Source: Lactococcus protaetiae (GTDB taxonomy: Bacteria > Bacillota > Bacilli > Lactobacillales > Streptococcaceae). From it: a stretch of DNA of 64,000 nucleotides. The notes below the pieces were generated by a model. It saw only the letters and a list, made by a program, of their open reading frames with translations, was not told the DNA's origin and made no database searches. The stretch spans positions 2,232,001 through 2,296,000 of the forward strand of contig NZ_CP041356.1 in NCBI RefSeq assembly GCF_006965445.1, written 5' to 3'. Of this stretch, positions 26,549-54,250 are shown one piece after another. Within the stretch, counting starts at the first letter, position 1; each line of letters opens with the position of its first letter. Made by a program: the position numbers and the translations under genes.

Positions 26549-26723
26549 TTTTTAAAAAAGCGACCAGCGGCCGCTTGAAGTCTTATACTAGTTCAGCTAA
26601 TAATTTTTTTAGAAAAAGTTATTAGCTGAACTGCAAATAGACTGCTTTGCAACGATTGGGAAAAGCGATGCTTTTCTTATCCGTAGTTTGAGAAGTAACC
26701 TCAAGTGGGAAACCCAAGCTTCG

Positions 26724-27242
26724 ACTTTTAACTTAGTAAGTGCGTGCTGTCTCCGCCCTTTGGGCTACGCGATAAACATTTGTCCTTTTTATCTAGCCGC
26801 TAAAGCCTCTGATAAAAAGGCCGTCAATGCCCGCTGCGATGCTACGTGCTTCGCACACCGTTCTATGAACGGTCTTTGCAACTTCGTTGATCACTATCCA
26901 TTCGTTCCATCTCCGCTTTACTACGCTGTCAATTTCACTATCTACGCAACTTCGTTGCTCCGCTGTCCATGCTCGCTATGGTGCTACGTGCTTTGCACGC
27001 CGTTCTGCGAACGGTCTACGCAACTTCGTTGCTCCGCTGTCCGTTTGCTTAGCAAGCAAAGCTGGCAAGACGAAATGGTAAGAGCAAAAGGCACGCACCT
27101 GTGCGCCGTTCTTCAAACGGTCTACGCTCGATGTTCTCGCTCCGCTGTCCGTTTGCTTAGCAGGCGAAGCCTGCAAGAGCAAAAGGCAAAGCATCTAGTC
27201 GCAATCGCAATTCCCCACCAATGAAGTAACCACTTCAAACGT
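26724..27242 (+). repeat. Largest uninterrupted mosaic hairpin element
   Basis: About 520 bp made of modules found singly elsewhere: TTTTAACTTAGTAAGTGCG, CCCTTTGGGCTACGCGATAAA, TTTTTATCTAGCCGCTAAAG, repeated GCAACTTCGTTGC and CCGTTCTGCGAACGG hairpins, ending with CACCAATGAAGTAACCACTTC. Several modules occur two or three times in tandem, showing expansion within the element. The open frames over it have repeat-derived products and are not genes. Confidence 0.7.
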
Positions 27243-27256
27243 CCCGTTTAACCGTA

Positions 27257-28230
27257 TTAGATTTGCTCTGAAGGAAGATGCAATTCAAAAAGAGGTGAAA
27301 GAGGACGGCGTTCGTGGATACGAATGATTGCATCTGCAAGCAAGTGTGCAATCGAAAGTTCTACGATTTTCTCACTCTTACGTTCTTCTGGAATTTGAAT
27401 GGTATCCAAAACGACTAATTTAGTGATTGCTGAGTTATTGATACGTTCAATCGCTGGTCCCGATAGGACTGCATGGGTACATGAAGCGTAAACTTCAGTT
27501 GCTCCAAGTTCCTTGAGCGCATTGGCAGCGAGAGTAATTGTGCCTGCTGTATCAATCATATCATCAATCAAGATACATTTTTTACCTTTAACATCACCAA
27601 TAATATTCATAATTTCAGCGACATTTGCACGCGGACGGCGTTTGTCAATAATAGCAAGTGGTGTTTTGAGAAAATTTGCCAATTTGCGCGCACGACCAAC
27701 TCCTCCATGGTCAGGAGAAACAACGACAACATCATCGCCAGCCGATACAAAATGACGACGGAAATAATCTGCAATGAGCGGTGAACCCAAAAGATGGTCA
27801 ACTGGAATGTTAAAGAAACCTTGAATTTGAGGCGCATGAAGGTCAAACGTAATCAATCGATCTGCACCTGCAATTTGAAGCATATTTGCTACAAGTTTTG
27901 ATGTAATTGGCTCTCTAGCACGCGCTTTACGGTCTTGTCTAGCATAACCGTAATAAGGCATGACAATGTTAATTGATGCAGCGCTAGCCCTGCGAAGAGT
28001 GTCCATCATAATCAAAAGTTCCATCAGATTGTCATTGACAGGGCACTTGTTGATTGAAGGATAAAAACATGGTCACCACGAACTGATTCGTCAATGTGAA
28101 CTTCCGTTTCACCATCTGAGAAGGTGCGAACACTTACTTTTCCAAGCTCAATTCCGATTTCCTTAGCCACTTTTTGGGCCAATTCTGGATTGGAAGAGAG
28201 CGAAAACAGCTTCAAATTTGAGTACGACAT
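27257..28230 (-). CDS. prs: Ribose-phosphate pyrophosphokinase (frameshifted)
   Basis: Two frames joined at about 28041 give a normal-length Prs (about 323 residues), which makes PRPP from ribose 5-phosphate and ATP in the cytoplasm. The N-terminal part ([18 protein letters not shown], then [16 protein letters not shown]) shifts after QSTSA; adding one C to the CCC run (28041-28043) yields [14 protein letters not shown] and continues to the PRPP loop [11 protein letters not shown]. Because prs is normally essential, a base-calling error in the homopolymer is the likely explanation. Confidence 0.92.
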
Positions 28231-28369
28231 GAAGAGCCTTTCTTATAAATCGTTACGAACCTACTGGTTCAGTTAGATGCACTACTTATTTTACCTTAAA
28301 TTACTAATTTTTTCAAACACTCATTTGTTTTTGATACTGAAATTTGTACTGATAATCTAATACTGTTTG

Positions 28370-28530
28370 ACTTTTAACTTAGCAAGTGCGTGCTATCTCC
28401 GCCCTTTGGGCTACGCTATCCATCCTTGCTACGGTGCTACGTGCTTTGCACGCTGTTCTGCAAACGGTCTACGCAACTTCGCCGTTTGCTTAGCAAGCAA
28501 AGCTTGCAAGAGCAAAAGGCAGTGTATCTG
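28370..28530 (+). repeat. Mosaic hairpin element
   Basis: Starts GACTTTTAACTTAGCAAGTG, then TATCTCCGCCCTTTGGGC, CGTGCTTTGCACG, CAACTTCG, and AGCAAGCAAAGCTTGC. It lies upstream of prs and downstream of ftsY, followed by CTGTCAG units at 28553-28626. Confidence 0.65.
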
Positions 28531-31607: not shown

Positions 31608-32495
31608 CTACCTTCTCACTCGTTTCAACTCTTTAATTTCTTTACTCATCAGTAAAGCATAGGAGTTACAATCACAATATTCAAAAACATCACGACATTT
31701 CTCCATTATCACTAATGCTGTATCATCTCCTCGATGAAAACGATAATTGGCTTTATTATACTTTAGAATATTTTTTTCAAAAGTATAATAATCTTCGATA
31801 TTCATATTTTCAAGATAACTAATATATTTTTCTGCTAACTCCCACTGCTTATTCCTAACAAATGCATTGACAATATTGAGTAAAGCTTGAATTTTTGCAC
31901 GTCGTATTTCTGGTAACTTTTTATTGAAATAATTAGCTTTTAACATCTGTTGAGTTAATTTTGAAAGTGTAACAGGGTCAAAAATATGATCACTTCGGGT
32001 TAGTGCATTAATATCATATATTCCCCAATCTTCTAATTCTAAAAGATAGGTTTTTAAAAATAAAATATCCTCTTCAGGTATTTTATACTCCCTATCAATT
32101 TTTGCAAGAACTGCCTCTGCTTGTACTTTATCTAACTTGTATTTCTTACTCTCAAACGTCAAAGATAGCATTTTTAGTTTTTCAATAAATTGACAAACCT
32201 TATCCTTATCATTAGACATATACGCTGCAATAAGTTCTGATTCGTAAAGCATAATATCTTTAGAATTCAACATCTGATTATATAAGTTCTGAAACTCAAA
32301 AGCTGAAACATTAATATTATTTATGATATTAAAGAAAGTTTCAACAGATGGACTAGAAATTCCATTTTCAAATTTAGATATATTAGCACTAGAGGTATCA
32401 TTTCCAGCTGCTTCTTTCAACGTAAACTTTTTTGAAGTTCTAAAAAGTTTAAAAGCTTCCCCATATAAGACTTTCTCAACATTTCCACTTTTCAT
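31608..32495 (-). CDS. Rgg/GadR/MutR-family transcriptional regulator
   Basis: 295 residues. An N-terminal XRE-like helix-turn-helix (FRTSKKFTLKEAAG, SSANISKFENG, about residues 18-50) with the Rgg-typical ISSPSVETFFNIINNINVS continuation is followed by an all-helical repeat domain (about 70-290) of the kind that binds short peptides. It is divergent from a 27-codon hydrophobic peptide gene starting 125 bp away, the layout of Rgg/SHP pheromone circuits in streptococci. The peptide is therefore its probable ligand and the divergent promoter its target. No conserved metal or enzyme residues. Confidence 0.9.
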   Translation of the reverse strand: MKSGNVEKVLYGEAFKLFRTSKKFTLKEAAGNDTSSANISKFENGISSPSVETFFNIINNINVSAFEFQNLYNQMLNSKDIMLYESELIAAYMSNDKDKVCQFIEKLKMLSLTFESKKYKLDKVQAEAVLAKIDREYKIPEEDILFLKTYLLELEDWGIYDINALTRSDHIFDPVTLSKLTQQMLKANYFNKKLPEIRRAKIQALLNIVNAFVRNKQWELAEKYISYLENMNIEDYYTFEKNILKYNKANYRFHRGDDTALVIMEKCRDVFEYCDCNSYALLMSKEIKELKRVRR

Positions 32496-32527
32496 CCATC
32501 CTCTCCTATATTACAAATAAATAATAA

Positions 32528-32590
32528 TTAACGATAGTTAAAAATTAACTCTATTTTATTTTTGTATTCTTTTATATAGTTTATTATACT
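32528..32590 (+). promoter_or_regulatory. Promoter and candidate Rgg operator of the peptide gene
   Basis: TTGTAT (32562-32567), 17-bp spacer, TATACT (32585-32590). Upstream lie three alternating half-sites TTAAC-GATA-GTTAA-AAA-TTAAC (32528-32549), a plausible operator for a dimeric activator placed next to the -35 box. Confidence 0.6.
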
Positions 32591-32619
32591 ACAAACATAA
32601 TTATGAGGGAGGAGAAGTT

Positions 32620-32703
32620 ATGAAAAAATCAAAATTCACATCACTACTAGTCGCTTTAGTATCCTTGGTCGTTGTCTTTGTTGAAGTTCTTCCTTGGGGA
32701 TAA
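32620..32703 (+). CDS. Short hydrophobic peptide (SHP-like pheromone precursor)
   Basis: 27 codons, ATG at 32620 with a strong ribosome site GGGAGGAG (32607-32614). The product starts MKKSKF (three lysines), has a hydrophobic core rich in Leu/Val, and ends FVEVLPWG. A basic N-terminus, hydrophobic middle and short C-terminus with an acidic residue followed by hydrophobic/Gly residues match SHP/ComS precursors that are exported, trimmed and re-imported by an oligopeptide permease. The mature form may be the last 6-8 residues (an inference). It is divergent from rgg and upstream of a membrane-protein gene that it may co-regulate. Confidence 0.75.
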   Translation: MKKSKFTSLLVALVSLVVVFVEVLPWG

Positions 32704-32829
32704 TTTTAATACTACTTATAAATAAAGTTTCACTGATGCGATAATGTCACTTATTATCTTTAGATTAAAATATTAACATATTGAAATTTTTCTCCATCTA
32801 GAACATACTAAACAAAAGGAAAAAACTAA

Positions 32830-33675
32830 ATGAATAATACGATTACTAACCTATTATCCAATCAATCTCAAAAGGAGATACGTACAGACCGACTACAAGT
32901 CCAAGGAAATGTGCTCAAAGTTGACAAAAACACTCTTCAATTAAGTAATATCTCCACGCTAAGTCACGGTCGCCTAAAAGTTAACATTCCATATCCGCTT
33001 ATTATCATATGGCTCTTAATCTCTCTTATCATCTTAAAGTTTTCTTTTATACTAGGGTTAATTTTAATCATTGCCTTAGGAGTTTATATCTACTATCTCT
33101 ATCAGAAAACTTTAAATACTAATTCTTATCTTTATATTCAGCTTAACTCTGGAATAATCTATCCTATTTATTTTAAAGAGGAATCTTTTTTACTTGAGGT
33201 TCAGGATGTGTTAGAAACTGCTTTTAATCAGCGAAATCAAAATATTAGCATTAATATCAAAGATCAGACAATTGTTGGAGATAATAACTCAATTGCTGAA
33301 CATTCTATTGGGAATAACAACATTATTGAATCAAACAATACTGATAAATCTTTCAGCATAGGAGAGATTAATAATAGCTCTCTTGAGCAGGTTCAACTCG
33401 GTCATGGCAATCACGCAAATATTGCTTCCAATGTTTCCGGTTATGACTGGGATGAAATCTCTAAAGAACTAGAGCGTGTTATTAATAACATCTCAATTTC
33501 CTCTTCAGTTAAGTCTGTTAGTATTGAAGCATTAGAAGCCGCTAAAAATAAAGATACTTCCACATTTGAAACCATTGTAAAGAGTCATAAAGCCGAGTTT
33601 CTTTCAGAGTTATTTGTAAATTTTGCAGGAAGTTTATTAACTCAAGTTGTCACTAAAATTTTAGGAATGGGATAA
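32830..33675 (+). CDS. DUF6232-like membrane protein, likely Rgg/SHP target
   Basis: 281 residues. An N-terminal part (VQGNVLKVDKNTLQLSNIS) resembles DUF6232 domains, followed by a membrane hairpin (about residues 57-92) and a long Asn/Ser/Ile-rich segment (about 130-200; SINIKDQTIVGDNNSIAEH), then a helical C-terminus with a hydrophobic end (FVNFAGSLLTQVVTKILGMG). The N-rich segment looks repetitive (GDNN, GNNN, ESNN). Ribosome site AAAGGAAAA. It is 126 bp downstream of the SHP gene with no strong terminator between, so co-transcription is plausible. Function unknown. Confidence 0.7.
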   Translation: MNNTITNLLSNQSQKEIRTDRLQVQGNVLKVDKNTLQLSNISTLSHGRLKVNIPYPLIIIWLLISLIILKFSFILGLILIIALGVYIYYLYQKTLNTNSYLYIQLNSGIIYPIYFKEESFLLEVQDVLETAFNQRNQNISINIKDQTIVGDNNSIAEHSIGNNNIIESNNTDKSFSIGEINNSSLEQVQLGHGNHANIASNVSGYDWDEISKELERVINNISISSSVKSVSIEALEAAKNKDTSTFETIVKSHKAEFLSELFVNFAGSLLTQVVTKILGMG

Positions 33676-33693
33676 CACATTTATCATTGAAAT

Positions 33694-33720
33694 AAAAAAA
33701 GCCCAAATGGGCTTTTTTTA
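33694..33720. terminator. Bidirectional terminator
   Basis: AAAAAAAGCCC / GGGCTTTTTTT around a 4-nt loop, between convergent genes. Confidence 0.9.
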
Positions 33721-52936: not shown

Positions 52937-54250
52937 TCAATCCACAAATTCAAACTCAAATTTACGAATTCTTACATAATCGCCATCACGAGCGCCCATT
53001 TTCCGAAGGGTTTCATCAACACCCATAGAACGCAGCTGACGAGCAAACTTCATAACAGATTCATCATGGTCAAAGTTTGTCATAATGAATAATTTTTCAA
53101 TCTTCTCACCAGACAAGCGCCATCCTCCATCATCATCTCTAGACACACTAAAAGGTTGCTCCTCTTCTTCAAATCCGTAGTACGCAGCTTCATTCGCAAT
53201 CTCGTCTTCATCATAAAGCAAGAACTCAGGCGTTTCGGAAAGTAGTTCACTCGTGCGAGCCAACAGACCTTGAAGACCTGTTTTCGTTAAACCAGAAACT
53301 TCAAAGATTTCAGGCATTTGCTCGTCATCTTTCAAATCTGCCGCTAATTTTTCTTTAAACTCTGCCAGACGTTCAGGAGCTTCAGGCATATCCATTTTAT
53401 TTGCTACAATGATTTGTGGGCGTTCCATCAAGCGCAGATTATAAGATTCCAACTCATCATTAATCGTTTTATAATCTTCATAAGGGTCACGTCCTTCAAG
53501 TTCAGACATATCTAAGACATGAAGCAAGACGCGCGTCCGCTCAATATGTCTAAGAAATTGAATACCAAGACCCGCACCTGAATGCGCTCCTTCAATCAAA
53601 CCAGGCATATCCGCCATAACAAAGCTATCGCCATAGCCGACTTGTACCATCCCAATATTTGGAGTAATTGTCGTAAAATGATAAGCTCCGATTTTTGGTC
53701 TAGCGTTTGATACTACAGAAAGTAAAGTTGATTTACCCACAGATGGAAATCCAACCAAACCAACATCTGCAAGAACACGAAGTTCCAACAACAAAATCTT
53801 ATCCTCACCAGGCTCACCATTTTCGGCAACCTCTGGCGCAGGATTGCGTGGTGTTGCAAAACGAATATTTCCTCGTCCTCCACGTCCTCCTTTAGCTACA
53901 ACAAATTCTTGATCCTTTTCAATCAAGTCAGCAAGTACGTTACCTGTTTCATTATCTTTGACCGTTGTTCCTTGAGGAACGCGCACAATTAAATCTTCAG
54001 CGCCACGTCCATGCATTCCCTTATTCATCCCCTTTTCGCCAGCTTTAGCACGAAAAATACGATTATAACGGAAATCCATCAATGTAGACATTCCTTCATC
54101 TACCTTGAAAATAACTGAACCACCTTTTCCGCCATCACCGCCTGCGGGGCCTCCGTCTGGGACATATTTTTCACGACGAAAAGCAACTGCTCCATCGCCA
54201 CCTTTCCCAGCTTTTACCTCAATTTTAGCTGTATCTAAAAATAAGCTCAT
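52937..54250 (-). CDS. obgE: GTPase ObgE
   Basis: 437 residues: the Gly-rich Obg domain ([31 protein letters not shown]...), the G domain with G1 [24 protein letters not shown] and NKMD, and a C-terminal OCT domain (about residues 355-437). An essential ribosome- and stress-associated GTPase. Upstream of the small hypothetical gene with a mosaic fragment between. Confidence 0.97.

Follow-up and report, generated by a model that had tools for sequence, protein, structure and literature searches.

Rgg-based pheromone signalling is known mostly from streptococci (excerpts of PMC13361665). Among the closest described systems are the SHP/Rgg pairs of groups I and II (Rgg2/Rgg3, RovS, Rgg1358, Rgg1509), in which shp is divergent from rgg and codes for a hydrophobic precursor with a basic start, a terminal Gly and a single conserved Glu or Asp before the C-terminal end, which starts the mature form. 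In the group III pair SHP1299/Rgg1299 of S. thermophilus, the genes are convergent with shp downstream of rgg, and the precursor (MKKVIAIFLFIQTVVVIDIIIFPPFG) combines an acidic residue, hydrophobic residues, Pro, an aromatic residue and Gly in the end DIIIFPPFG, which contains no Trp. RtgS of S. pneumoniae has a PWG motif (AIIFPWGWPI) with Trp-Gly-Trp and no acidic residue; it is encoded divergently from RtgR, which is reported to be nearer to ComR, an inverted repeat is needed for induction, and the system controls a transporter of double-glycine peptides. SHP1518, the partner of Rgg1518 in the same species, is a 33-residue precursor with WxW motifs and the end FETWFWG. ComR/ComS also joins an RRNPP regulator to a short hydrophobic peptide, but comS is not divergent from comR (excerpts of PMC7018657), and the peptide of LCP/RopB is leaderless, with about 8–10 residues.

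The locus analyzed here lies in a 64,000-nucleotide stretch of the Lactococcus protaetiae genome (the window). It shares with SHP/Rgg groups I and II the divergent layout, the basic-start hydrophobic precursor, one Glu before the C-terminal end, the terminal Gly and an SHP-receptor fold; it differs from them in that only Val-Leu-Pro stands between Glu and Trp-Gly, in a mature form that by the acidic-residue rule would have only six residues, and in its Lactococcus host. The peptide end FVEVLPWG is close in shape to that of SHP1518, although the downstream genes are different, and unlike RtgS the peptide has one Trp only and thus no Trp-X-Trp. It also differs from the leaderless peptide of LCP/RopB in its 27 residues and basic start. 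A preliminary description had likened this layout to both Rgg/SHP and ComR/ComS systems of streptococci; the likeness holds for SHP groups I and II but not for ComRS, and the host is not a Streptococcus.

The same description took the EVLPWG-like end for a pheromone form not met before. EVLPWG is indeed absent from the peptides in Table 1 of PMC13361665 (the nearest by eye being AIIFPWGWPI, DIIIFPPFG and SHP1518), and the string did not occur in a search of the main texts of open-access papers. However, the end is not wholly new in kind, as both PWG and ends that combine an acidic residue with a terminal Gly have precedents, within the excerpts compared, in RtgS, SHP1299 and SHP1518. The authors of RRNPP_detector foresee divergent SHP-like propeptides beside Rgg in Streptococcus, and therefore the general idea was already known. 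In L. lactis, ten rgg deletions had a less than two-fold effect on competence (excerpts of PMC11244767). Excerpts of PMC10075063, PMC10518010, PMC3679016 and PMC12445099 were also included in the comparison. The locus is notable because no Rgg pheromone pair of Lactococcus was described among the matches listed (titles and starts of abstracts on the genus together with Rgg, SHP, RRNPP, a pheromone or a bacteriocin). Judged from its sequence, it is probably an Rgg/SHP-like circuit with a code that Table 1 of PMC13361665 does not contain.

The regulator, the peptide and their promoter region

The minus-strand gene at 31608–32495 codes for a 295-residue protein that scored above cut-off in profile searches with both Rgg_C (76.3 bits, cut-off 27) and TIGR01716 (79.5 bits, cut-off 36.9), which bears out its earlier assignment to the Rgg family. 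Its N-terminal HTH_3 match (22.9 bits) is marginally below the cut-off of 23, and the protein has the N-terminal HTH and Rgg C-terminal domain of RRNPP regulators. The best structural neighbors of its model were Rgg144, Rgg3-SHP3 and Rgg2; as modeled, it has a pheromone-receptor fold that matches the SHP receptors, and we propose it as the receptor of this locus. The genome (2.70 Mb, a single contig) contains 10 Rgg_C genes above cut-off, and upstream regions were examined for eight, including this one.

On the plus strand, at 32620–32703, a 27-codon gene encodes the proposed pro-pheromone MKKSKFTSLLVALVSLVVVFVEVLPWG, which is strongly hydrophobic. The gene and its divergent orientation are as described before, except that the gap to rgg (32496–32619) is 124 bp rather than 125 bp, and the ribosome-binding site was located at 32607–32614 as the 8-base purine stretch GGGAGGAG. 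We filtered for ORFs of 18–36 residues that are preceded by a Shine-Dalgarno sequence and have a basic and then hydrophobic composition; 15 of 5000 dinucleotide shuffles of 32496–32829 yielded such a peptide, a figure that serves only as a guide because the filter was devised after the peptide was known. In the window, the peptide ORF and one other spot (53808–53820, minus strand, three nested starts) passed. The mature pheromone probably lies within the last 6–10 residues. If processing followed the rule for acidic residues, the product would be EVLPWG, which is shorter than every entry in Table 1 of PMC13361665 and counts against the SHP reading.

Promoters activated by Rgg2, RopB and ComR are reported to have a non-canonical -35 element with inverted repeats close by (excerpts of PMC4162386). 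The peptide gene had been credited with a good promoter. By eye, we placed it at 32562–32590 (plus strand), with a -10 of TATACT (5/6, 32585–32590) that fits this judgment, a spacing of 17 bp and a -35 of TTGTAT (3/6, 32562–32567) that does not, and a consensus promoter scan did not list it. The half-sites noted near this promoter were recovered as TTAAC-N4-GTTAA-N3-TTAAC (32528–32549, plus strand), in which the palindrome occupies 32528–32541 and the third TTAAC 32545–32549. This triple half-site is a candidate Rgg box. With up to one mismatch it occurred once in the window and in none of 100 shuffles of the window, whereas the palindrome of two half-sites is less distinctive by itself, being present in 11 of 100 shuffles. 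Two observations count against the Rgg-box reading: the genome contains no second exact copy, the element occurring without mismatch once in 2.70 Mb, and it is located farther upstream of the -35 than in reported class II promoters. As a whole, the observed arrangement of divergent Rgg gene, 27-codon peptide gene and half-sites was confirmed from the ORFs, profiles and motif positions.

It is possible, though unlikely, that the peptide signals in a different way, with the Rgg protein being mainly an Rgg3-like repressor that the peptide relieves, or acting inside the cell that makes the peptide, with no export step. Rgg3 resembles the protein closely in structure and has been reported as a repressor (excerpts of PMC13361665), the half-sites are close to the peptide promoter, and a purely intracellular XIP pathway was reported in S. 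mutans (excerpts of PMC7018657). However, a poor -35 with half-sites upstream is a better fit to activation than to repression, and the related RtgS requires both PptAB and Ami in the excerpts compared, which argues against an intracellular route.

The downstream gene and conservation of the unit

Downstream of the peptide gene and on the same strand, a gene at 32830–33675 codes for a 281-residue membrane protein with a single long hydrophobic stretch (about residues 49–92) and a weak match to DUF6232 (20.3 bits, below the cut-off of 27.4). The unit ends with a terminator-like inverted repeat, found by eye, at 33694–33719 (AAAAAAAGCCC-AAAT-GGGCTTTTTTT). A terminator scan listed none between the peptide and membrane genes, but as it also misses this clear repeat, that result speaks only weakly for read-through; no unusual RNA fold was seen (z 0.46). 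Homologs of the membrane protein (27–33% identity) were detected in 10 other genomes of the family, and none of the 10 had an Rgg match in the flanking sequence analyzed, which reached at most about 1.5 kb per side; thus, the protein is not tied elsewhere to a regulator of this kind. In seven of these genomes, the gene after the homolog starts like what we take to be adenylosuccinate lyase. From the common strand, the conserved spacer and the lack of a listed terminator, it is plausible that the membrane protein is the output of the circuit and is co-transcribed with the peptide gene.

Rgg matches at E 1e-30 or better were present in 14 of 18 Lactococcus genomes, L. protaetiae included, but a close copy (98%) was found only in L. 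protaetiae and one sister species (G001), and the same two were the only ones among the 18 with the membrane protein at E 1e-5. The preliminary description had called for a search for the peptide and its partner in relatives, and in the sister species both are kept with the frame intact. There, the unit is syntenic (Rgg 98%, membrane protein 94%), and the peptide (MKKLKFTLLLVALVSLVVGFVEVLPWG) is identical in 24 of 27 residues, including FVEVLPWG and therewith Glu22. The peptide genes differ by four base changes (three nonsynonymous, one synonymous), leaving the last eight codons untouched. Changes affected 2 of 124 positions of the rgg-peptide spacer and 4 of 126 between the peptide and membrane genes, compared with 33 of 178 in the two spacers just outside the unit (22/130 and 11/48, four gap columns counted; Fisher p 1.7e-6 and 2.6e-5, respectively). 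All three half-sites are kept, with one change in a spacer, and the -35/-10 promoter is unchanged. This conservation is shallow because only two species, about 95–96% alike at the locus, carry the EVLPWG code.

The neighbors of the unit are presumably khpA and rpsP. The gene that we labeled khpA is present in all 18 genomes of the genus, and in only two of them do rgg and the membrane gene lie within 1.5 kb of it, and other ORFs stand beside it in genomes without the unit. By comparison of these sequences, the rgg-peptide-membrane gene unit looks like a lineage-specific insertion. Elsewhere in the window, a minus-strand gene that we take to be similar to ribose-phosphate pyrophosphokinase (27257–28230) is split between two frames (27257–28024 and 28024–28230), whereas the sister species has one open frame; the split may be an error of sequencing, or the frame may really have changed. 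On both sides of this gene (26720–27190 and 28366–28522) there are direct repeats, in families of 28 to 72 nt, that are perhaps a dispersed intergenic element.

Related Rgg genes and their facing peptides

At E 1e-50, the Rgg profile matched in 61 of 335 genomes of the family. In a tree of 65 Rgg sequences, the L. protaetiae protein clustered with 29 others, from Lactococcus and further genera of the family, and this group of 30 separated from the remaining 35 with support 97/93; the tree contained no known reference Rggs, those of groups I and II included, and has several long branches that make its details unsure. ORFs below 230 residues, sequences below 60 bits and those contained in one another were left out.

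A divergent hydrophobic peptide with a basic start faces 12 of the 30 group members, as found by filter or by eye (that of L016 was read by eye, and that of L023 passed the first filter but failed a stricter one). Their ends are EVLPWG (2), SYPIIIW (2), YLTSGF (2, TTG start), PLYALIMG or PLYAFIMG (2), LLYPVFGG (weak Shine-Dalgarno sequence), YYLISGLGM, LLYRIIDF and VIGGN. Common ends thus accompany related receptors, but those of L014/L015 (SYPIIIW) and L013/L016 (YLTSGF) say little because the receptors are near-identical; the informative case is L088/L025 (PLYALIMG/PLYAFIMG), whose receptor sequences are those of clearly different sisters. A related frame (ILTYPVITW) was read by eye in L058, but it lacks a normal start codon. 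Candidates considered weak and not counted were GTG-started ORFs before L031/L032, distant ORFs upstream of L026/L027 and an ORF that precedes L008 by 319 bp.

It is improbable that the short ORF codes for a small membrane peptide or holin-like toxin with no role in signalling, placed beside the Rgg gene by chance. This reading draws on the hydrophobicity of the peptide and a Hol_Tox match, which is insignificant (E 0.14, 12.5 bits, cut-off 23.3), and it is opposed by the divergent position, the conserved promoter spacer and the different short hydrophobic peptides opposite related Rgg genes. For the other 18 of the 30, no obvious peptide was found, although the upstream sequence was as short as 373 bp for L017 and 255 bp for L024. 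This counts against the pheromone reading and would agree with a stand-alone GadR/MutR-like regulator that controls the membrane-protein gene in response to another cue, the peptide ORF being untranslated, and an RRNPPA survey excludes Rgg homologs that have no peptide nearby (MutR, GadR), which it treats as not quorum-sensing (excerpts of PMC9765709). Such a role is improbable here as well, given the 8-base purine ribosome site, the rarity of such a peptide in shuffled sequence and the identity of its last eight codons in the sister species.

Several further arrangements were observed. A second divergent Rgg/peptide pair of L. protaetiae, outside the 30-member group (L004, G000:C1:304976-308467; also L144), has the peptide MKKRFFCFFAFIIMDVIITKYSLVIPIIQK ending in DVIITKYSLVIPIIQK; the same C-terminal end occurs in the sister species, and similar peptides in L022 and L029. 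The Rgg gene of L150 (G033) faces MKKYKLNLINLAVIIVSFAAFHHIWPV, another candidate containing Trp-Pro. At about 1263–1800 of L062, we noted by eye the peptide MRKFKLFQLVKVLTVLLLLYRIIDF and, after it, a sequence similar to a double-glycine leader, LTEEEILEIDGG, whose ATG is directly followed by an in-frame stop. Among relatives in the group, L037 and L088 have radical-SAM genes as neighbors (85.2 and 37.5 bits, respectively; cut-off 29.5), and L023 has a ThiF gene (165.7 bits; cut-off 28.1). In L. garvieae EP01 (L038 3291–3485 and 1028–1666 on the minus strand; also L016 and L040), the YLTSGF-ending peptide and its Rgg are near a 64-residue ORF, and an ABC transporter gene follows farther along (ABC_tran, 62.7 bits). 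We take this ORF to be similar to the circular bacteriocin garvicin ML, but no family or plasmid match confirmed the likeness. The start of this ORF recurs in L. ileimucosae, together with matching downstream ORFs.

The proposed circuit and its meaning

We think it likely that the locus is an Rgg/SHP-like autoinducing quorum-sensing cassette of Lactococcus that controls its own peptide and, by read-through, the DUF6232-like membrane protein. By analogy, the 27-residue precursor would be made, exported and trimmed, with PptAB/EcsAB and Eep, an M50 protease, acting on it; an oligopeptide permease would then re-import the resulting C-terminal fragment, for example EVLPWG or VFVEVLPWG. The divergently encoded Rgg would bind this fragment and, once loaded, act at the TTAAC/GTTAA site upstream of the poor -35 promoter, activating rather than repressing. 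Transcription of the peptide gene would thereby rise in positive feedback, and read-through would raise that of the membrane-protein gene. The genome does contain EcsB, M50 and six SBP_bac_5 matches above cut-off, at the level of families, but EcsB, M50 and OppA are common families, which counts against their weight as support. The interpretation given in the preliminary description is thus retained in its core, a divergent SHP-kind pair with a promoter conserved in a sister species and a receptor model like the SHP receptors, and given up for the ComRS layout and the wholly new end.

In a broader sense, there is about an even chance that lactococci and their close neighbors have an Rgg receptor branch of their own with fast-diversifying codes (EVLPWG, SYPIIIW, LLYPVFGG, YLTSGF, PLYAxIMG), some beside antimicrobial-type clusters, and that the locus is one such code. 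It would then be a first circuit of this kind for Lactococcus, and its signal would stand between SHP and RtgS in type. If this is true, the lactococcal peptide/Rgg family would give testable ligands to some orphan regulators, and its pairs could serve as inducible switches in food-grade bacteria.
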